IMG/VR virus record: IMGVR_UViG_3300012516_000929
Span: 1-25,114 of that record
DNA: 25,114 bases
Direction: 5' to 3' (one strand)
From: a virus
The notes under the pieces were generated by a model. The model did not search any database and was not told the origin of the DNA. It saw only the letters and a list, made by a program, of their open reading frames with translations. A program made the position numbers and the translations under genes. Of the stretch, positions 4,095 to 25,114 are shown one piece after another. How positions within the stretch are numbered: position 1 is the stretch's first letter; each line of letters starts with the position of its first letter.

Positions 4095-4898
4095 ATGGGT
4101 TTATGGGATTCAGTTGTATCTGGTGTAGGTAATTTCTTTAGTTCACCTGATACCTATAGTGGCTTAATTGGAGGTGGTCTTAGTTACCTAGGTGCTAGAG
4201 AAAACTCTCAGGCCGCTATTGCTGCTGGACGTGCTAATGCTGACGCTATTAGACAGTCAGCTACAGCCGCTCAAGCTGCTGCACAACCTTGGTCTGTTGG
4301 GTCCTTAGGTGGTACAGCTACCTTTGATGAAGACAGTCGATCAGCCCTTTTGAACCTATCGCCAGACCTACAGAATATCTATCAAGGTCTTCTTGATCGT
4401 TCAGGTATGTTTGGTGGACAAGCTACAGCATTGTCTATAGACCCCTTTAATGCTGCTAATGAGTTCTATAATCAACAACAGCAGTATTGGCAACCCCGTG
4501 AAGACGAGATGCGTACTGATGCTGAGACACGGCTCATGGCCCAAGGACGCTTAGGTTCCACAGGGGGCCAACGGGCTATGGGTGAACTTAATGAAAACAT
4601 CTTAGCCTCACAACAACAGAGACAGACACAGAGTTTTAGTCAAGCACAACAACTTATTGATCAGCTTCTTGGACGTGAGTCTGGTGACTTGGGACAAGCT
4701 CAAGGGCTCCTTGAGATGCCATTTAAACAAGGTCAGTTGGGTCTTGGTGTCGGTAGTTCTACTGGACAAGCGGCTCAATCAGGCCTTCAGGCTCGTACTA
4801 CAGCGGCTGGTATGCAGTATCAGCCTCAGGCCATTAGCCCCGGTGGTTCAGCATTGAATGCTATGGGTGGATTGTTCTTAACTCCTAGGAAGACCTAA
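4095..4898 (+). CDS. Putative internal virion / DNA-ejection protein, Ala/Gln-rich
   Basis: The 267-residue protein opens with a short Gly-rich hydrophobic stretch (about 8-34), then long Ala/Gln-rich helices (about 38-65 and 125-200), including a conserved-looking core around 'RTDAETRLMAQGRLGSTGG' (about 139-157). The C-terminus is Gly/Ser-rich. No enzyme motif is present. It begins a run of five TAATG- or overlap-linked genes behind the nozzle gene, where podoviruses encode internal core or ejection proteins. A good ribosome site (AAAGGAA) precedes the ATG. The role is inferred from position and composition; a tail-needle or other virion component is also possible. Confidence 0.6.
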   Translation: MGLWDSVVSGVGNFFSSPDTYSGLIGGGLSYLGARENSQAAIAAGRANADAIRQSATAAQAAAQPWSVGSLGGTATFDEDSRSALLNLSPDLQNIYQGLLDRSGMFGGQATALSIDPFNAANEFYNQQQQYWQPREDEMRTDAETRLMAQGRLGSTGGQRAMGELNENILASQQQRQTQSFSQAQQLIDQLLGRESGDLGQAQGLLEMPFKQGQLGLGVGSSTGQAAQSGLQARTTAAGMQYQPQAISPGGSALNAMGGLFLTPRKT

Positions 4899-6235
4899 TG
4901 GCTGTAAATGGACTACTAGGGGCAGATGTCCCTAATTGGTTAGGGGATTGGCTGTTGGGTCAAGGAGCTACTTATGCCCCTATGTCCCCTCAGTCAGGTT
5001 ATAATAGTCAGTCTAACTCTAATTGGCTACAAAACTGGCAGAGTAATTTACCTACTGGTATGGGTCAAGTTAACGCTGCTACTCCAGCTACAAATGCTCC
5101 TGTGGTCCTACAAGGGGCCAAAGGACTATTTGATAGTTTAGGCGGTGGTGGTGGAAGTAATAACCCCGGTCCTGACCCTACAACATTAGGCATGATGGAC
5201 ATAGGTAATATGGCCAATGTTGCAAGTAAGGGTCTTGGGTTGTTTGGAGCCCCTATGGCAGTAGGGTTAGGTATTAACGCTATTGGACAAGCAGTACAAG
5301 CTAACATGATGAATGAGAATGTGACTATTGGGGAAGATTTAGCTGCTAACGTTAGCCCTGTTGAAGCGTTCTTTTCAGCCTTTAATCCCTTTAGTGCTTT
5401 TGGTCCTCAAAACGCTGTATCTCAACTAACCGAACAAGATAATATGTTTGGTGAAATTAGTAACATCACCGCTCCTCTAACTATGGCTCAATTGGCCCAC
5501 ATGTCTAACCCTAATGTAGGTCTTGCGGTAAGTGGGATGCTTGGCAGTGTTGCGGGTGATGCTGCTTCTGGTGTAGAGGCTGCTCAAAGTGTCCAAGGCG
5601 TTGCTAATGCGTTAGGTATTAACATGTCAGAGGACACTCATGGAGTTGGTTTTGGTGGTATGGGTACCACATCAGGTCCTGGTGGGTCTGATAGTGGTGG
5701 TGGTTCCGAAAGCGGTGATGGCTCAGGTGGTGATGACTCCTCAGGTGGCTGTTGGGTAGCAGGTACTCAGGTGATCATGGGTGATAACTCATCTAAGAAC
5801 ATTGAGGACCTAGCTATTGGTGATGTCGTTATGACATTCCCTAAGGATGATCAACGATGGAATACTCCTTTGGAACCTAAAGCAATCACTGAACTTACTG
5901 TCTTACCTGAGAACATCTGGTGGCTTAATGACACTGGTGTCTCTAAAGAAGAGTGGGTCATTAGGTCCAACGGTGAGGCTGCTAGGGTCAAATGGCTCCA
6001 GTTGGGTGATAAACTCATGACTGCTAACGGTACTGTTTCGGTTCGACGTGTGGAGCCTAAGGGCACTGTAGAGCCTGTCTTTAACTTTATGACTGCCGAT
6101 AACTACTCATACACGGCAGATGGTATTCGCACAGTACGAGGCATGGGTGTTAAAGGTTCTAACTTCGCTAAACCAACACCGGGGAAGACTATGCGTGAAT
6201 GTTACAAACATGTATTTAAAGAGGAATTAAAATAA
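4898..6235 (+). CDS. Virion-type protein with C-terminal intein-like Hint domain
   Basis: The 445-residue protein has three parts. Residues 1-250 are Ala/Gly/Asn-rich with hydrophobic stretches (for example about 105-135), like the neighbouring ejection-type proteins. Residues about 251-284 are a Gly/Ser/Asp linker. From Cys285 a Hint-like domain begins: the first block, CWVAGTQVIMGD, is followed by a KNIEDLAIGDVV block (300-311), a WLQLGDKLMTANG block (366-378) and a final VEPVFNFMTADNYSYTADG block (391-409). The usual block-B histidine is missing (no His from 286 to 437) and there is no terminal His-Asn. Known Hint domains cleave or splice at the Cys; whether this one does is unknown. It lies between ejection-type genes with TAATG joints on both sides. 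Confidence 0.72.
   Translation: MAVNGLLGADVPNWLGDWLLGQGATYAPMSPQSGYNSQSNSNWLQNWQSNLPTGMGQVNAATPATNAPVVLQGAKGLFDSLGGGGGSNNPGPDPTTLGMMDIGNMANVASKGLGLFGAPMAVGLGINAIGQAVQANMMNENVTIGEDLAANVSPVEAFFSAFNPFSAFGPQNAVSQLTEQDNMFGEISNITAPLTMAQLAHMSNPNVGLAVSGMLGSVAGDAASGVEAAQSVQGVANALGINMSEDTHGVGFGGMGTTSGPGGSDSGGGSESGDGSGGDDSSGGCWVAGTQVIMGDNSSKNIEDLAIGDVVMTFPKDDQRWNTPLEPKAITELTVLPENIWWLNDTGVSKEEWVIRSNGEAARVKWLQLGDKLMTANGTVSVRRVEPKGTVEPVFNFMTADNYSYTADGIRTVRGMGVKGSNFAKPTPGKTMRECYKHVFKEELK
5750..6232 (+). other. Hint (hedgehog/intein-like) domain coding segment
   Basis: This segment encodes residues 285-445 of the gene at 4898. Its first codon is the predicted nucleophile Cys (TGT at 5750-5752), directly after a Gly/Ser/Asp-rich linker. 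The conserved turn sequence GTxV, the IEDLxxGD block and the second LxxGDKL block are in the right order. The lack of a C-terminal His-Asn-Cys/Ser/Thr means protein splicing is not expected; at most N-terminal cleavage or transfer could occur. Confidence 0.65.
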
Positions 6236-19626: not shown

Positions 19627-21259
19627 CTTCCACTGCCTTCAATTCTGGTGCGGTGCCTTGTATCATTCTACCAGAGTTTTCTTCGTAGTACAACCACCCT
19701 GCTTGACCAGTACGACCAGTACGGCGGCATTTAACTAGCTGCACAAGTGTACTATTCCTAGTATACTCGTCTGCAGCCATCTTGTCACGGCTTAACAGGA
19801 TCGTGTTGAATGCAATCTGGTTGATAGAGCCAGAGCCCTTCATATCATACTCATTGACATCATGCGGGTCCTTAACATTAGGCTTACGCATGTGGCTAAT
19901 GATGATGATGGATACCCCGGTCTCCTTAGCGAGCTTGAGACACCGATCCATAAAGGCATCAATGGTCCCGTTCTCATCTGACCGTACAGCGGCATGTAGA
20001 GGGTCTACAATCAATACATCACAGTCAATACCCTTAGCCATCCAACGCATCTTAGCGAACAATGCGTCCACGTCAGACATACCTAGGTGTTCAAGAAGAT
20101 ATACGTTCTCATTCTTCTTAAAGTCATCGTAGAAATTACGATAGGCTGAATTGTCGCGTTGGGATTGTGGTACTAATGAGATATTCTCACCACTATGAAG
20201 TGACACAACCTTCTCAGCAATCTCACCAATGTCGGCCTCAAGAAACACTGCACCAATCTTTTTATTCCCTTGGGTCACCATGTCATACAACAGATTGAAT
20301 ACCATAGTAGTCTTACCGATAGACGTAAGGGCTCCAATCACAGTGACCTCACCTGCAGCAATACCACCGTTCATCATGGCATTCAAAGAGCCATAGGCCT
20401 CAGGTAGTGGGATGATTTCTTCAGTGCCACGTTTGACAAAGGCATCCCATACACGCTCGTCACTGAAGGACACAACGTCCACAGGACGGTATGGTTTAGC
20501 ATCCCACCATGCAGATACAAACTCACGTACCTTACCGTTCTTAAGCATATCACCTGCGTCCTTAAGGGGCAGTGCGACAGTCTTAACTTTACCGTGGGAG
20601 AATAAAGGAAGTACGTCTTGAGTAGCCTTTTGACCTGCAGGGTCATTATCGAAACAAACCACTACATTCTCAAAGGTCTCAAGCCACTCAAGATGCTCCT
20701 TGATGTCCTTTCGAGCCCCTGCAGCCCCTGTCTTAAGGGAGACCACAGGCCACTTACCATCAAACATTTCAGAGACTGCGAGAGCGTCTAATTCACCCTC
20801 GACAATTGTCACATACTTACCACCTTCACGCCACAATTGCTGACCAAATAGACCAGCCTGTTTTAAATCACCTTCGCTGAAAAACTTCTTGTCGTTAACT
20901 GAGCGGATTTTCTTACCGACAATATCGGTCCCGCCTTTGATTGAATAAGGGTACTCATGTTTAATAATGTTTCCTTTATCGTCTTTGATCACCGTCACGT
21001 TAAATTTACGTGTGATGTTCTCAGAGATATTACGGTCTTTGAGTGGACTGAACGTCCCTGACATTTCTATATTCCTTACTAGCTTAGGTTTCGTATTAAA
21101 AGTAAGTGATGTAGTCTGAAGAAAGCCACAGCTAAAACAATACCCATGACCATCGTCGTAGATTACTAGGTTATCTCCGGTGGAGTCCCTGCCCTCATTA
21201 CGACATGAGGGGCAGGGAACCTTAGAGACAACCACAGAGTCTGGTTGACCCGACCACAT
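19613..21259 (-). CDS. T7 gp4-like primase-helicase
   Basis: The 548-residue fusion enzyme primes and unwinds DNA at the fork. Zinc-binding domain: Cys16, Cys19, Cys41, Cys44. The TOPRIM primase has EGELDALAV at 154-162 and FDNDPAG at 203-209. The RecA-like helicase has a Walker A of type AxxxxGKT at 310-317, a Walker B DVLIVDP with Asp419, a His sensor in SHMRKP (about 456) and Arg512/Arg513 as the arginine-finger region. I use the ATG at 21259, one base after the SSB stop; an upstream ATG at 21400 would put 47 extra residues inside the SSB gene. It overlaps the polymerase by 14 nt. Confidence 0.95.
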   Translation of the reverse strand: MWSGQPDSVVVSKVPCPSCRNEGRDSTGDNLVIYDDGHGYCFSCGFLQTTSLTFNTKPKLVRNIEMSGTFSPLKDRNISENITRKFNVTVIKDDKGNIIKHEYPYSIKGGTDIVGKKIRSVNDKKFFSEGDLKQAGLFGQQLWREGGKYVTIVEGELDALAVSEMFDGKWPVVSLKTGAAGARKDIKEHLEWLETFENVVVCFDNDPAGQKATQDVLPLFSHGKVKTVALPLKDAGDMLKNGKVREFVSAWWDAKPYRPVDVVSFSDERVWDAFVKRGTEEIIPLPEAYGSLNAMMNGGIAAGEVTVIGALTSIGKTTMVFNLLYDMVTQGNKKIGAVFLEADIGEIAEKVVSLHSGENISLVPQSQRDNSAYRNFYDDFKKNENVYLLEHLGMSDVDALFAKMRWMAKGIDCDVLIVDPLHAAVRSDENGTIDAFMDRCLKLAKETGVSIIIISHMRKPNVKDPHDVNEYDMKGSGSINQIAFNTILLSRDKMAADEYTRNSTLVQLVKCRRTGRTGQAGWLYYEENSGRMIQGTAPELKAVEDEEF

Positions 21260-21260
21260 A

Positions 21261-21638
21261 TTAGAAGTCCTTTTCGTCTCCAGCGTCATCACCATCACGT
21301 TCGGCATACTCCAGAACCTTGATCTTCTCAAGGTAGGTCGATGTACCCCACTGTGGATGCTCAGGACCTGCTTTCCACTTAATACGTACCTTAGAGCCAT
21401 AAGGGATATGTTTAGAAACTACATTACCCTCAGCGTCCAGTACGTCAATAGAGTATTTACTGGCGAATTTACGCTGCTTGTTGTTCTGGTATTCCTTGAT
21501 ACGAACACCTTGGTTCTCAAGGGTAGCTGCATCTTCATCATCCATCACCAGAACGACAGAGTATTTACCAGTGTCTTGACCATTGTAACGCTCAGTCTCA
21601 GCGAGGTTACAAAATGCTACAGTACCTTCTAAAATCAT
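21261..21638 (-). CDS. T7 gp2.5-like single-stranded DNA-binding protein
   Basis: The 125-residue protein has a beta-rich, OB-like body ('GKYSVVLVMDDEDAATL', about 24-40; 'IPYGSKVRIKWKAG', about 78-91) and a very acidic tail ending in Asp-Phe (DGDDAGDEKDF). A C-terminal acidic tail with a terminal aromatic residue is the hallmark of T7 gp2.5-type SSBs and recruits polymerase and helicase. The ATG at 21638 is preceded by TAAGGAG at good spacing; the frame reaching 21710 would run into the HTH gene. The primase-helicase starts one base after its stop. Confidence 0.82.
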   Translation of the reverse strand: MILEGTVAFCNLAETERYNGQDTGKYSVVLVMDDEDAATLENQGVRIKEYQNNKQRKFASKYSIDVLDAEGNVVSKHIPYGSKVRIKWKAGPEHPQWGTSTYLEKIKVLEYAERDGDDAGDEKDF

Positions 21639-21651
21639 ATCTATAAGCTCC

Positions 21652-21849
21652 TTAGGCTGCTTTTGAATAACGGGTGTAACGGCGACCAGTGATATCCTTA
21701 CGGGTCTCACGTTTGATCTGAACCCCTTGACCCTCTAGGTCGTTAATACGACGAGAGAGTGATGCGATACGGTAGAGGTTCATGGCTTCATAGTGCGACA
21801 AACCTTTACCAGAGTCAAGATGTTTTTCGATTAACTGTACTTGCGTCAT
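21652..21849 (-). CDS. Small helix-turn-helix protein
   Basis: The 65-residue, basic protein has the pattern of small phage/bacterial HTH proteins (HTH_39-like): 'TQVQLIEKHLDSGKGLS' (2-18), 'YEAMNLYRIASLSRRINDL' in pieces (20-38) and a beta-wing 'GVQIKRETRK'. It probably binds DNA and could regulate the replication operon, which begins here. An AAGGA site precedes the ATG. The promoter at 21883-21911 lies just upstream, making this the first gene of its transcript. Confidence 0.68.
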   Translation of the reverse strand: MTQVQLIEKHLDSGKGLSHYEAMNLYRIASLSRRINDLEGQGVQIKRETRKDITGRRYTRYSKAA

Positions 21850-21882
21850 AGTGTGTAGTCCTTTCCTTCAAGCTACAAGAGT

Positions 21883-21911
21883 ATTCTATAGAGGATAAAT
21901 GTCCCCGTCAA
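21883..21911 (-). promoter_or_regulatory. Putative sigma-70 promoter of the replication operon
   Basis: On the - strand TTGACG (21911-21906) is followed after 17 bp by TAGAAT (21888-21883). The -10 lies in the 12-mer CTATAGAATACT, which is identical in the promoter at 24051-24079. It overlaps the stop codon of the gene at 21886 and faces the HTH-SSB-helicase-polymerase genes. Downstream spacing to the ATG at 21849 leaves a 5' leader of about 25-30 nt. Confidence 0.6.
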
Positions 21912-22113
21912 CAACTTTTTTCACAACGTGTTCTTTTTTTAGTGCGTAGTTAACCTCATGTTCCCTGATGAAGTATGAATACCACATGCCATCATCAGAG
22001 GCCGTAAGGGTCTCTTGAAATACTTCAGCATCATGACGATACGCAAAGATACCTTTGACACCTGCGTAGTCATAACCGTCGTATTCAAAAACTATAAAGA
22101 CTTTATCAATCAT
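21886..22113 (-). CDS. Small protein of unknown function
   Basis: The 75-residue protein opens with a beta strand and a Gly/Tyr turn ('KVFIVFEYDGYDYAGVKGIFAY', given as residues 4-25 in outline), then a helix beginning RHDAEVF. This beta-turn-beta-helix opening is like small phage proteins that carry 'activity then increment' folds (DUF7336-like, uncertain). It ends Tyr-Pro-Leu-stop, with the stop built into the promoter -10. It is preceded by the GAGCGAGG-type intergenic element. Confidence 0.5.
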   Translation of the reverse strand: MIDKVFIVFEYDGYDYAGVKGIFAYRHDAEVFQETLTASDDGMWYSYFIREHEVNYALKKEHVVKKVVDGDIYPL

Positions 22114-22134
22114 GTGTCTATCCTCGCTCTTTTA
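22114..22134 (-). repeat. Intergenic/RBS element, type A (degenerate copy)
   Basis: From the upstream stop codon the - strand reads TAA, then AAGAGCGAGGATAGACAC, then ATG. It shares GAGCGAGG with the type A copies at 22654 and 23073 and supplies the Shine-Dalgarno sequence (CGAGGAT). Confidence 0.5.
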
Positions 22135-22350
22135 TAGGATGCAGTTTTTACATGATCCGGCACCGATACCAGTTGCGTCACCGGCCATATCTAATGAACT
22201 ACAAACCAATCCAGCGTATTGAATAGAGCCATCACCCATAAAAGAGAAACGGGCGCGGGGCATCACCTTGCAAACACCTTCCTTCTTTTTTAAATCGGCG
22301 CTGTACTTGACTGCTTGATCGGCGGGTATGTCGATATATCCGTTTTGCAT
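22132..22350 (-). CDS. Small Cys-containing protein, unknown function
   Basis: The 72-residue protein has four Cys (27, 50, 67 and 70), with the last two as CxxC close to the C-terminus, so a metal site or disulfides are possible. The middle is Gly/Ser-rich ('FMGDGSIQYAGLVCSSLD', 37-54). The start follows a GGAG within the type B element. It has the higher-GC, CpG-rich codon use of this block. No family was recognised. Confidence 0.5.
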   Translation of the reverse strand: MQNGYIDIPADQAVKYSADLKKKEGVCKVMPRARFSFMGDGSIQYAGLVCSSLDMAGDATGIGAGSCKNCIL

Positions 22351-22374
22351 TTCATGCTCTCCATAGGCTCGTTA
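22351..22374 (-). repeat. Intergenic/RBS element, type B
   Basis: The - strand reads TAA (stop of the gene at 22372), then CGAGCCTATGGAGAGC and a short spacer before the ATG at 22350. It matches the copy at 22850-22874 (CGAGGCTATGGAGGGC) in 14 of 16 positions. The GGAG inside it is the likely ribosome site. Confidence 0.55.
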
Positions 22375-22653
22375 TTCGGCACTCATGCGAGTGCGTTTCC
22401 ACCACCAGACAGACCGACTACCAATGTCGATTGTCTTGGCGTTCTCCAATAAGTACGCGCCACGCTCGGCGCTAATCTTTGCTACGCGGCGAAACCCGTT
22501 GCCGCGAAACTGGTTGCCCTTATCATCAGTAACCATGTGTCGCTCAACGCCGCCGACATTATCTAAAACGCGATCATAGAAGCCGACGCACCAATGATCG
22601 CCAGGGTCTCCATCGCTGTACTTGGTCGCCAGAACGTAGTCACCTTTTTCCAT
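22372..22653 (-). CDS. Small basic/aromatic protein of unknown function
   Basis: The 93-residue protein begins MEKGDYVLATKYSDGDP, followed by 'DHWCVGFYDRV' (about 18-28), then a beta-rich region and a Trp-Trp-Trp-Lys-Arg C-terminus. The opening looks like a small SH3/KOW-like barrel seen in hypothetical proteins of several phages. I use the ATG at 22653, directly after the AGGTAAGGGC element; the longer frame to 22764 lies inside the neighbouring gene. CpG-rich codon use differs from the replication genes. Confidence 0.58.
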   Translation of the reverse strand: MEKGDYVLATKYSDGDPGDHWCVGFYDRVLDNVGGVERHMVTDDKGNQFRGNGFRRVAKISAERGAYLLENAKTIDIGSRSVWWWKRTRMSAE

Positions 22654-22672
22654 CGCCCTTACCTCGCTCTTA
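22654..22672 (-). repeat. Intergenic/RBS element, type A
   Basis: The - strand reads TAA (stop of the gene at 22670), then GAGCGAGGTAAGGGCG, then ATG. GAGCGAGGTAAGGGC is identical to the copy at 23073-23092. AGGTAAGGG provides the ribosome site. Confidence 0.6.
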
Positions 22673-22849
22673 TGCGTTCGCGTTCTTGTTAGTGATAGCG
22701 GCTTCAATGTCTGGGATGTTCGCAGGATTAAAAACCATGACTTTTGTTCCGTCAGGCACTTCATATTTACTGCGAAGGTTTACGGATACCATCGACGGCA
22801 TACAGACCGCATGATCTGCCGGAACTTTACTGCTAAATCTTGTCTCCAT
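22670..22849 (-). CDS. Small protein of unknown function
   Basis: The protein has 59 residues from the ATG at 22849 (METRFSS), seven bases after GGAGG. It is mixed in charge with a 'VPDGTKVMVFNPANIPDIEAA' region (given as about 36-55 in outline) and one Cys (16). An upstream ATG at 22864 overlaps the element itself and is less likely. No family was recognised. Confidence 0.5.
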   Translation of the reverse strand: METRFSSKVPADHAVCMPSMVSVNLRSKYEVPDGTKVMVFNPANIPDIEAAITNKNANA

Positions 22850-22874
22850 TCTATTGCCCTCCATAGCCTCGTTA
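22850..22874 (-). repeat. Intergenic/RBS element, type B
   Basis: The - strand reads TAA (stop of the gene at 22872), then CGAGGCTATGGAGGGC and AATAGA before the ATG at 22849. It pairs with the copy at 22351-22374. Confidence 0.55.
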
Positions 22875-23072
22875 GTCGGCGTTAATCTTACGGCGATAAA
22901 TCGTATGCGCCGGACAATTCGGATCGGACGCTTTACGCCCTTTCATGTGTGGCGGCGCTTGTCTCCACCAATCATTTCCACCGTGCCAAGGATGATCCGT
23001 TTCAAGGTATTCATCCGTGGCTTTTATAAACTCGCCTTTTTCAAGCTGTCTGTATGTGTGGTCCCAATTCAT
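22872..23072 (-). CDS. Small Trp-rich protein of unknown function
   Basis: The protein has 66 residues from the ATG at 23072, right after AGGTAAGGGC. It contains 'LEKGEFIKATDEYLE' (about 10-24) and Trp residues at about 29 and 35-36, then 'GRKASDPNCPAHTIYRRK'. The GExI-x-x-x-DEY-x(n)-W pattern is one I associate with small, widely spread phage/prophage proteins of unknown function. It shares the CpG-rich codon use of this block. Confidence 0.52.
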   Translation of the reverse strand: MNWDHTYRQLEKGEFIKATDEYLETDHPWHGGNDWWRQAPPHMKGRKASDPNCPAHTIYRRKINAD

Positions 23073-23092
23073 GCCCTTACCTCGCTCGTTTA
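23073..23092 (-). repeat. Intergenic/RBS element, type A
   Basis: The - strand reads TAA (stop at 23092-23090), then ACGAGCGAGGTAAGGGC, then ATG at 23072. It is the clearest copy of type A. Its stop codon supports the small upstream frame at 23090-23197. Confidence 0.6.
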
Positions 23093-23197
23093 CGAAATCA
23101 GATATTTTATCAGGTCCAGTAAAGCAAAGCCGATAGTCGGTATAACAATCCAAACCTCAAGCCTTGAATAGACCCGCTTCGTCCAGAAGTTAATCAC
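23090..23197 (-). CDS. Very small single-TM protein (GTG start)
   Basis: The 35-residue frame starts with GTG at 23197, overlaps the stop of the gene before it by 8 nt and follows an AAGGG site. It has a basic/aromatic N-terminus (residues 1-15) and one hydrophobic segment (about 16-34). Its stop codon opens the type A element, as do the stops of the other genes in this block. The overlap geometry is the main reason to think it is real. Confidence 0.35.
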   Translation of the reverse strand: MINFWTKRVYSRLEVWIVIPTIGFALLDLIKYLIS

Positions 23198-23414
23198 GCC
23201 GGTTATCCCTTGCCTTCGCGTCCGGTTTCGAGGGCGCTTGTTTCGGGCTTCCGTTGTCGGACAAATTAGGCAACGGCCTACGCTCCATAACACGCTCCGC
23301 AGCCCTGTCCGCTGCCTTTAACCTATCATCATTAAGAGATTGATACAAGTCCTCTTTAGTTAGAAACTGACTCATAGTTTTATGAGCCCTTAGGTCCCTC
23401 ACAAAGTCACTCAC
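23190..23414 (-). CDS. Small charged protein of unknown function
   Basis: The protein has 74 residues from the GTG at 23414, which makes an 8-nt overlap (GTGAGTGA) with the previous stop and follows AGGAGAAGG. An ATG at 23375 (MSQFLTKED) lacks a ribosome site and would give 61 residues. The N-terminal half is helical ('LYQSLNDDRLKAADRAAERV'); the C-terminal half is Pro/Lys/Arg-rich and probably disordered. No motif was recognised. Composition becomes CpG-rich partway through it. Confidence 0.48.
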   Translation of the reverse strand: MSDFVRDLRAHKTMSQFLTKEDLYQSLNDDRLKAADRAAERVMERRPLPNLSDNGSPKQAPSKPDAKARDNRRD

Positions 23415-23592
23415 AGTCCTTCTCCTCTTTCTCCTCATGTTCCATCCAAGTATCCCAACCTAAACAATACTCAGCCACCATATGGCCTTGTGTGAGTAGT
23501 CTACAGTCACCATACTTATCGTAATATTCACAATCACTACAAAAGGAACCATCTTCATAGACTTCACTAACAATTTCCCATTTATTCCGCAT
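23407..23592 (-). CDS. Small zinc-ribbon-like protein
   Basis: The 61-residue, acidic protein has Cys18-x2-Cys21, Cys30 and Cys43 in 'FCSDCEYYDKYGDC' and 'AEYCLGWDTW', a likely four-Cys metal site. It ends in a Glu/Lys-rich tail. The ATG at 23592 overlaps the previous gene by 11 nt (ATGCGGAATAA). The pattern is common for small phage proteins with uninformative names; function unknown. Confidence 0.6.
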   Translation of the reverse strand: MRNKWEIVSEVYEDGSFCSDCEYYDKYGDCRLLTQGHMVAEYCLGWDTWMEHEEKEEKDCE

Positions 23593-23749
23593 GATCATAA
23601 CCTTCTAAATATTCGTACAACTCACGGTCTACGTCTTTAGTGTCCAACAAGACCTTAGTAGACTTAAAGGCCTTAGGCCTATGGAATTTATCCATGTTGA
23701 CCTTAACAGGGTCTTTAACCTTACGGTTAGCTTTATTCTTTTTAGACAT
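23582..23749 (-). CDS. Very small Lys-rich protein (55 aa)
   Basis: The 55-residue frame begins MSKKNKANRKVKDPVK and ends EYLEGYDHAE. The N-terminus is strongly basic, then the sequence becomes acidic. It overlaps the next gene by 11 nt, the same overlap length used elsewhere in this genome, and codon use is of the genome's normal type (CCT AAG, GAC CCT). An AAGGT ribosome site precedes the ATG. Function unknown; a nucleic-acid-binding role is possible from charge only. Confidence 0.55.
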   Translation of the reverse strand: MSKKNKANRKVKDPVKVNMDKFHRPKAFKSTKVLLDTKDVDRELYEYLEGYDHAE

Positions 23750-23759
23750 AACCTTCACC

Positions 23760-23906
23760 TTATGTGACTGAGAAATAAAAAGCGATTAACAAAATCATAC
23801 ACACTAAAAAACATAACGTCAACTTAAAAAGACCTACAATAAAGTTATCTATAGGCCCCTTAGGGTCCATTACGTCTAAGACTTCAACCCACCCGTTATA
23901 CTTCAT
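23760..23906 (-). CDS. Very small single-TM protein (48 aa)
   Basis: The 48-residue frame opens MKYNGWVEVLDVMDPKG, then a hydrophobic segment (about 22-47) reaching the C-terminus, suggesting an N-in or N-out tail-anchored membrane peptide. AAGGA lies before the ATG at suitable spacing. It is the first frame after the tandem repeat array. A candidate promoter lies within it, so the region may serve both functions, or the frame may be fortuitous. Confidence 0.4.
   Translation of the reverse strand: MKYNGWVEVLDVMDPKGPIDNFIVGLFKLTLCFLVCMILLIAFYFSVT
23794..23822 (-). promoter_or_regulatory. Putative sigma-70 promoter
   Basis: On the - strand TTGACG (23822-23817), a 17-bp spacer, then TATGAT (23799-23794). 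It would drive the Lys-rich gene at 23749 and those after it. It lies inside the 48-codon frame at 23760-23906, so only one of the two may be functional. Confidence 0.4.
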
Positions 23907-23921
23907 TGTCTCTAGTCCTTC

Positions 23922-24000
23922 TTAAGGGTCCTAAGGGGTCTTAAGGGTCCTAAGGGTCCTAAGGGTCCTAAGGGTCCTAAGGGTCCTAAGGGTCCTAAGG
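23922..24000. repeat. 9-bp tandem repeat array, unit CTAAGGGTC
   Basis: Eight units and a partial ninth: TTAAGGGTC (23922), a 10-bp variant CTAAGGGGTC (23931), TTAAGGGTC (23941), five perfect CTAAGGGTC copies (23950-23994) and CTAAGG (23995-24000). Each junction makes CCTAAGG, a partly palindromic core. The spacing is too short and uniform for CRISPR. It lies about 45 bp downstream of the -10 of the promoter at 24051-24079, in its predicted leader. Confidence 0.9.
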
Positions 24001-24006
24001 TATTAA

Positions 24007-24026
24007 CTTTAAGATATAACTTAAAG
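24007..24026. repeat. Inverted repeat, 7-bp arms
   Basis: CTTTAAG (24007-24013) and CTTAAAG (24020-24026) flank an AT-only 6-nt loop. It lies between the promoter and the tandem array, in the position of an operator or an AT-rich unwinding element. It has no T-run, so a terminator is unlikely. Confidence 0.5.
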
Positions 24027-24050
24027 GATATCCCTTAGGACCACTTAAGT

Positions 24051-24079
24051 ATTCTATAGGTCTTCTTTCGCCTTGTCAA
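24051..24079 (-). promoter_or_regulatory. Strong putative sigma-70 promoter upstream of the repeat array
   Basis: On the - strand TTGACA (24079-24074), a 17-bp spacer, then TAGAAT (24056-24051): perfect -35, one mismatch in the -10 and optimal spacing. The -10 is part of CTATAGAATACT, also present in the promoter at 21883-21911. It overlaps the 3' end and stop codon of the gene at 24054 and reads leftward through the inverted repeat and the tandem array. Confidence 0.65.
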
Positions 24080-24224
24080 CCCATAGATCGAATTCAAATT
24101 GCGAATTAGAATAATAAATTTCACCCATACAGGACGAACAGGTATCTAGAAATCCATTGCCTTTATGGTCTTTCTTTACGCTTTCTTCTTTTGTCAACCT
24201 TTTATCACATACTTTACAACGCAT
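24054..24224 (-). CDS. Small two-CxxC zinc-binding protein (56 aa)
   Basis: The 56-residue frame begins MRCKVCDKRL with Cys3-x2-Cys6 and has a second pair Cys29-x2-Cys32 (DTCSSCMGEI), a classic four-Cys zinc finger. The C-terminus is acidic/aromatic. An AAAGGA site precedes the ATG by a good distance. Small proteins of this form are frequent in early regions of podoviruses. Its stop TAG is shared with the promoter -10 on the same strand. Function unknown. Confidence 0.68.
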   Translation of the reverse strand: MRCKVCDKRLTKEESVKKDHKGNGFLDTCSSCMGEIYYSNSQFEFDLWVDKAKEDL

Positions 24225-24238
24225 GATTTTAATCCTTT

Positions 24239-24421
24239 CTATAGATCACTGATAGGTAAGGTACGTAAGACATAATCTTGTAATTTACCTGTCGGAAATG
24301 CATGAAGTTTAAAGATGTAAGCTTGTTTCGCTAATTTAATTACCTCATGCATAGGCATATACTGAAACTCGTGTTCCCATAAGGCCTCTAGGGTCTCATG
24401 TTCTACTTCTTCATTTAGCAT
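24239..24421 (-). CDS. Small early protein, unknown function
   Basis: The 60-residue, helical protein has an acidic N-terminus (MLNEEVEHETLEALWEHE) and 'YMPMHEVIKLAKQAYIFKL' in the middle (given as 21-39). It overlaps the gene before it by 11 nt. No motif was recognised. The small size, early position and membership of a run of overlapping genes suggest an accessory host-takeover protein, but this is only context. Confidence 0.5.
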   Translation of the reverse strand: MLNEEVEHETLEALWEHEFQYMPMHEVIKLAKQAYIFKLHAFPTGKLQDYVLRTLPISDL

Positions 24422-24764
24422 ATTCTAAGTCCTCTTCTAATATAGTGTAAGTACGAAAACCCGCCTTTTCTTTAAGACTACTTAAGGTCTCCCAATACTG
24501 TTCTTTAAACTCTTCACTGGCATAAGTCAACGTAAGACCGCGTACAGTAGTGTCTACGTAATCATCACCCATATCAATACCGCCGTGTGTCATGTCTGAC
24601 TTAGCGGCAATGAACCATCTAGCGTAGGTGTTATCTAATTCGTTCTTAGGTGTCTGATAGGTCTTGAGTAGTCTAATTTCAGTGACACCGAAAGGACCTA
24701 CACCCTCAAAGATGGCATAAGGGGCCTCAAAACTAACACTCTTAGACAACAGGTTTTTACTCAT
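24411..24764 (-). CDS. Early protein of unknown function (117 aa)
   Basis: The protein has 117 residues from the ATG at 24764, which follows GGAG and overlaps the previous stop by 8 nt (ATGAGTAA). The longer frame to 24788 is less likely. It has alternating beta-like segments ('EAPYAIFEGVGPFGVTEIRLL' in outline, about 12-32; 'YARWFIAAKS', about 46-55) and a helical, charged C-terminus. No known domain was recognised. Confidence 0.55.
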   Translation of the reverse strand: MSKNLLSKSVSFEAPYAIFEGVGPFGVTEIRLLKTYQTPKNELDNTYARWFIAAKSDMTHGGIDMGDDYVDTTVRGLTLTYASEEFKEQYWETLSSLKEKAGFRTYTILEEDLEYAK

Positions 24765-24945
24765 GGTTTTTATTCTCCAATAATACACAAGGTTTAATGT
24801 AAACGTTAGTTTTCTTTATACGCTCAAGCCTATACGTAGAACACTGTTGATACGTATTAAAGGTTAAACGTATATCGGCTTTATATGGGATCATAGACCC
24901 TTGTGCGACGTAAGACGCTACAATAGAGAACACTAACACCCACAT
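24757..24945 (-). CDS. Small exported or membrane-anchored protein
   Basis: The 62-residue protein has a hydrophobic N-terminus (1-14, then Ala-Gln-Gly) that looks like a signal peptide or anchor, and two Cys (35 and 53) that could form a periplasmic disulfide. The C-terminus is charged (ENKNHE). It lies between a membrane protein gene and a soluble early gene, overlapping the latter by 8 nt. No family was recognised. Confidence 0.5.
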   Translation of the reverse strand: MWVLVFSIVASYVAQGSMIPYKADIRLTFNTYQQCSTYRLERIKKTNVYIKPCVLLENKNHE

Positions 24946-24948
24946 AAC

Positions 24949-25114
24949 TTAGGCCTTCTTAAATCGACGGTATAGACCATTACAAACAACATATACAAGG
25001 CTTAAAGGTATCCACAAGGGGCTGGCTGCGATTAGTCCTGCCCACAATAGCAGTGTGGTAAACCATTTATAACCTGTAAAGGATGTTAGTACGATAAGAC
25101 ACGCACTATAGGCC
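24949..25114 (-). CDS. Membrane protein, partial (N-terminus beyond the right edge)
   Basis: The frame is open from the right edge to a TAA at 24951-24949, about 54 residues, with no usable start codon inside. It shows two hydrophobic segments ('LLLWAGLIAASPLWIPL' and 'SLVYVVCNGLY') and a basic end (YRRFKKA). It stops three bases before the ATG of the exported protein at 24945. Too little is visible to assign a function. Confidence 0.5.
   Translation of the reverse strand, partial: AYSACLIVLTSFTGYKWFTTLLLWAGLIAASPLWIPLSLVYVVCNGLYRRFKKA

Follow-up and report, generated by a model that had tools for sequence, protein, structure and literature searches.

Structure at the 5′ terminus stabilizes bacterial mRNA, because RppH and RNase E require that this end be single-stranded (PMC3997798). 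The put-type antiterminator of HK022 has two stem-loops in each leader (PMC9378689), and in the PmrA box, built from tandem half-sites of the OmpR/PhoB family, CTTAAG/CCTAAG hexamers follow each other at intervals of about one helical turn (PMC3973317). The viral control element described here shares features with each of these by analogy, and we do not assign it to any of them. As with the stabilizing 5′-terminal stem-loops of ompA and papA, a strongly transcribed mRNA may carry a stem at its 5′ end or close to it, but here the stem belongs to an inverted repeat that is built from tandem palindromic boxes and extends into the promoter. Like putL and putR, structured leaders of about 70 nt head two phage operons; unlike them, each would form a single hairpin with a variable stem (an inner hairpin within the loop of an outer one, rather than two stem-loops), and the phages are unrelated. 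The hexamers are spaced about one turn apart as in the PmrA box, but with a 4-bp instead of a 5-bp spacer, in up to 10 boxes and downstream of the −10 element. Among isolates, the DNA polymerase closest to that of the window (49% identity) is found in HTVC103P-type pelagiphages, described together with a related marine group that is unclassified and has HMO-2011-type capsid genes (PMC8528129), but isolates HTVC104P and HTVC115P, as well as CRP-143, MEP401, and MEP402, gave no match to our model of the leader. Bacterial genomes yielded no relatives of the helicase, and we therefore inferred no host.

The window analyzed is a virus record of 25,114 bases. It contains a tandem array on the minus strand (23923 to 24000) of 8.6 units of 9 bp, with the sense unit CCTTAGGAC. 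Tandem Repeats Finder (TRF) reported period 9, 8.6 copies, 94% matches, 2% indels, and a score of 140, compared with 49 for the runner-up array in the window and at most 64 across 200 shuffles that preserved dinucleotides. The array is thus real, as the original prediction had it, and the predicted details of one unit with an extra base (AAGGGGTC, about 23933 to 23940) and of CCTAAGG at the unit junctions were confirmed. On the sense strand, the six units nearest the promoter share one sequence (CCTTAGG-AC) and those farther from it have diverged, suggesting a recent amplification. The unit had also been described as a frequent word of the genome: rotations of the 9-mer do occur 20 times outside the array, counting both strands, against about 1.7 expected under a uniform model, but in a genome-wide word test that modeled oligonucleotide composition, the unit did not rank among the top over-represented words. 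A coding origin of the array was rejected, as no ORF of at least 50 aa runs across it. Exact matches to three units in viral contigs came from two unrelated loci, neither of them homologous; in one (L006) the repeat is coding (Pro-Lys-Gly), and in the other (L005) it lies in a different gap.

The array sits in a 147-base gap on the minus strand (23907 to 24053) between ORFs of 56 and 48 aa. The gap is noncoding, as predicted, and the 48-aa ORF that flanks it from 23906 was absent from that prediction. The 56-aa ORF (24054 to 24224, minus strand) is zinc-ribbon-like (CxxC...CxxC), matches PHROG 10364, to which no function is assigned there, and provides a syntenic marker. Its 3′ end holds a sigma70-type promoter, TTGACA-N17-TAGAAT, which begins at 24079 and ends at 24051 on the minus strand, matches the consensus at 11 of 12 positions, and is the top-scoring promoter within 20000 to 25114, in agreement with the promoter originally called. 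The leader that follows on the same strand consists of a left arm with two boxes, CTTAAGTGGTCCTAAGGG (24032 to 24049), which is conserved in relatives and whose first box lies between the −10 element and the expected +1 (about 24044); an AT-rich loop (24001 to 24031) with a predicted inner hairpin, CTTTAAG..CTTAAAG; a right (3′) arm formed by array units 1 and 2 (23984 to 24000); and, at the far end, a last box, CTTAAG, that merges into a Shine-Dalgarno-like AAGGA (23916 to 23927), a fusion also seen in relatives. After the leader come the 48-aa ORF (23760 to 23906, minus strand), which is hydrophobic in its C-terminal half and is missing or decayed in loci L048 and L032, and a basic 58-aa ORF (23582 to 23758, minus strand), the first conserved gene past the leader in most relatives. 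The SSB, primase-helicase, and polymerase genes also lie after the leader. Elsewhere in the window, the plus-strand ORF at 4898 to 6235 has a C-terminal part, CWVAGTQVIMGDNSSKNIEDLAIGDVV, that by eye resembles a Hint (hedgehog/intein-like) domain; its product had no match in PHROGs.

Searches based on the helicase and on the zinc-ribbon protein gave more than 100 related loci, several of them sharing contigs, from which we took 40 unique leaders that fell into about 20 clusters below 80% identity. The same anatomy of promoter, left arm, loop, and right arm occupies the syntenic gap in about 20 diverged clusters of viral contigs. A near-consensus sigma70 promoter overlaps the end of the zinc-ribbon gene, and about 40 unique relatives keep it at the equivalent place; the left arm starts with the box CTTAAG and is followed by the AT-rich loop, and the right arm carries one to five CTTAAG-type boxes toward the ribosome-binding site. 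Locus L032, for example, reads TTGACA-N17-TAGACT, ACTTAAGTGGTCTTAAG, loop, and ACTTAAGACCACTTAAGACCACTTAAGGAG, with the final box doubling as the Shine-Dalgarno sequence. Some extra boxes in relatives lie outside the hairpin, with variable spacers. Sequestration of the Shine-Dalgarno sequence was rejected as a general mechanism, as this sequence is well outside the hairpin in L093- and L042-type leaders. The window has the same features: a sigma70 promoter directly upstream, a box (ACTTAAG) after the −10 element, complementary arms flanking an AT-rich loop, and synteny, with the zinc-ribbon ORF on one side and the small basic ORF and SSB genes on the other.

A covariance model (R1) built from the leader alignment A2, from which the window was excluded, found the window leader at 24050 to 23984 (48 bits, E value = 2 × 10−7); aside from an opposite-strand copy at the same place, the next match in the window had an E value of 1.2. 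Because the model puts the 3′ arm on array units 1 and 2, we read the array as that arm amplified: by comparison of sequences, it is the downstream arm, multiplied, of the conserved element of promoter and leader that heads the replication operon. In the aligned leaders, the array appears as additional units inside the right-arm box cluster, with 9 to 10 boxes in the window against 1 to 5 in relatives. Absence from relatives, the outcome named at the outset as refuting, was found for the expansion but not for the element itself, which dozens of relatives carry. The control role ascribed to the gap is supported, but the array proved to be part of an inverted-repeat element, starting at the promoter, and not a stand-alone repeat. 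No Rfam family matched the element at the gathering score, and a shallow literature search found no description of it, so we claim novelty only to that extent.

We then looked at whether the arms are complementary beyond the shared boxes. With boxes masked, the pairing energy of left arms averaged −13.8 kcal/mol with their own right regions and −8.1 kcal/mol with those of other clusters, and none of 20,000 cluster-level permutations reached the observed mean; the direct-repeat control was flat (−8.3 versus −7.9). Across the 16 pairs of alignment A2, 87% of cells paired and 10 pairs showed double changes, with 45 double-change cells against 17.4 ± 2.9 after shuffling (0 of 500) and at most 23 with slid partners; these counts are inflated by sequence relatedness, and the cluster-level permutation therefore matters. 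The outer six pairs (the box) are nearly invariant and the inner ten vary. Between the near-identical leaders of L117 and L118, a U-A pair is swapped for C-G. In the window, L093, and L107, the asymmetric second boxes are inverted between the arms (CCTAAGG on the left and CCTTAGG on the right). Fold z-scores were −3.5 for the window leader and −8.0 for that of L048. The comparison of sense with antisense fold stability showed no significant bias, at 14 to 6 clusters (P value = 0.11), and that of G-U with A-C showed no clear excess of G-U, at 9 to 6. In loci L043 (about 2160 to 2240) and L039 (about 1870 to 1960), an insertion that looks structured (GGGGAACCT..AGGTGAG..) comes after the hairpin; Rfam gave no match for it.

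In relatives, a box-bearing variant of the element heads the divergent late operon on the opposite strand; the window stops short of this control region, and the late form was read in the relatives. Late leaders have a conserved extended −10 promoter (TTGACTT..ATATGNTATAAT) and box pairs such as CTTAAGTACACTTAAG flanking an AT-rich stretch. Once boxes were masked, own and cross pairing were equal (−8.7 versus −8.5; 6,969 of 20,000 permutations), and complementarity came mainly from the boxes, with spacers often direct rather than complementary; a long near-perfect hairpin, as in L371, occurs in single lineages. Counted on one sequence per cluster, adjacent CTTAAG boxes in early leaders were 9 bp apart once, 10 bp 13 times, 11 bp three times, and 20 bp once, and in late leaders 9 bp apart twice, 10 bp 16 times, and 12, 18, and 20 bp once each. 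Overall, 29 of 38 spacings were 10 bp and six more were 9 or 11 bp. Relatives thus have palindromic boxes at helical spacing, and the window array has 9-bp spacing and the less symmetric box CCTTAGG.

In relatives, the control region that separates the two divergent operons contains other sequences of note. The sigma54 −24/−12 consensus is TGGCAC-N5-TTGCA, and a match to it, TTGGCAYGGTTNTTGCAT, occurs in up to three copies (L014, 4727 to 4850; L113, 2786 to 2900; L135, 3112 to 3211; L109, 2747); the window ends before this region. In the same gap, L014 (about 4560 to 4650), L113, L135, and L131 share a highly conserved TCCAAATTGCTTCCCATGTGGTCCTGAGTGT followed by GGGTCCCCCC, a candidate cos site or origin. 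In a different phage group (L144, L153, L157, and L204), a promoter plus ACTTAAGTATACTTAAAG is followed by tandem repeats of the GAGATACATGAT type and more boxes, an architecture similar to the leader element, ahead of different genes.

We propose that the transcript, which would start at about 24044 judging from the promoter position, folds at its extreme 5′ end into a hairpin, and that this hairpin would shield the 5′ end and so stabilize, or otherwise control expression of, a replication mRNA made by host RNA polymerase. Several identical units, each able to act as the 3′ arm, would make slippage tolerable, and the copy number of the array would itself probably have no function. Whether the hairpin acts in the transcript we judge to be evenly balanced. 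We prefer this reading because arms that change fast and yet stay complementary need no co-evolving protein, and the covarying inverted arms, the inverted second boxes, and the place directly after the promoter favor it. Against it, transcription of the early leaders is expected to start downstream of the first box, so the RNA probably lacks a portion of the inverted repeat, and this probably untranscribed box is the most conserved part. The recurrence of boxes at one helical turn, the way late-leader complementarity stops at the boxes, and the lack of a significant strand bias in folding or of a clear G-U excess also argue against it.

That the element is functional and the extra array copies are transient products of slippage with no role of their own seems somewhat probable, a judgment compatible with either mechanism and not exclusive of the other readings. 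The left arm of the window leader pairs with four places in the array (45, 32, 13, and 8%), so the extra copies keep the hairpin possible; together with the six identical units, which point to recent events, and a 9-bp period that departs from the 10-bp box spacing of relatives, this leads us to take copy number as probably neutral. The difference in box number from relatives and independent expansions of similar words within them point the same way; such arrays, with units of 10 to 11 bp, lie in their upstream control gap (L032, 19 to 94; L014, 4901 to 4939; L052, 5438 to 5587), one example being CTTGAGTGGT × 7.6. The originally suggested slippage-prone leader fits the copy number in this sense. 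On the other hand, tandem boxes occur in many lineages, and some multiplicity may be selected.

The cooperative operator of the original prediction is a live rival, and we consider it a real possibility, if not a probable one. Palindromic CTTAAG-type boxes one helical turn apart would be bound as DNA by a host or phage protein, with one site at the promoter start and another some 50 bp further downstream; the array would be a multiplied operator, and the inverted arms would be a by-product or would bring the two sites into a loop. The conserved 10-bp spacing in early and late leaders, the conservation of the box even where it is probably untranscribed, the further boxes with variable spacers beyond the hairpin, and the late promoter, with its boxes and often direct spacers, are consistent with this. 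It does not predict lineage-specific arm complementarity past the box or second boxes that are inverted instead of direct, the window units are off the 10-bp phase, and no cognate regulator was identified, only an HTH_39 protein encoded further along the operon. Rather unlikely, in our view, is a combination in which palindromic boxes, in phase with one another, serve as a DNA operator gating the replication and late promoters of phages dependent on host RNA polymerase, the inverted boxes of the replication leader also fold the transcript, and copy number tunes either layer.

By analogy with putL and putR of HK022, structured leaders at the head of both divergent operons could modify host RNA polymerase in cis (PMC9378689), but the leaders have one hairpin instead of two and the late ones lack covariation past the boxes; such a putative antiterminator is very unlikely. 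The iterons of an origin, as originally suggested, found no specific support. An origin of replication that combines them with an AT-rich region for unwinding, for which the promoter, the AT-rich stretch, and the position ahead of SSB, primase-helicase, and polymerase genes could speak, is the least probable reading, as strand skew tracks the orientation of genes and shows no inflection at the array (a weak test on a 25-kb fragment), relatives have few boxes, and a similar element heads the late operon, unexpected for a single origin.

To return to the leader hairpin and its amplified arm, the comparison with relatives indicates that a conserved control element, a promoter plus a hairpin, has had one of its arms amplified in this lineage to give the 9-base repeat; the promoter-leader element looks real, and the additional repeat copies may be neutral. 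The odd repeat then marks a control element that is widespread and apparently unannotated and that is common, in two forms, to the two main operons in a large uncultivated group of phages. The element offers a handle on how replication and late genes are timed from strong host-type promoters in phages seemingly reliant on host RNA polymerase and on how short tandem arrays arise within such control elements.
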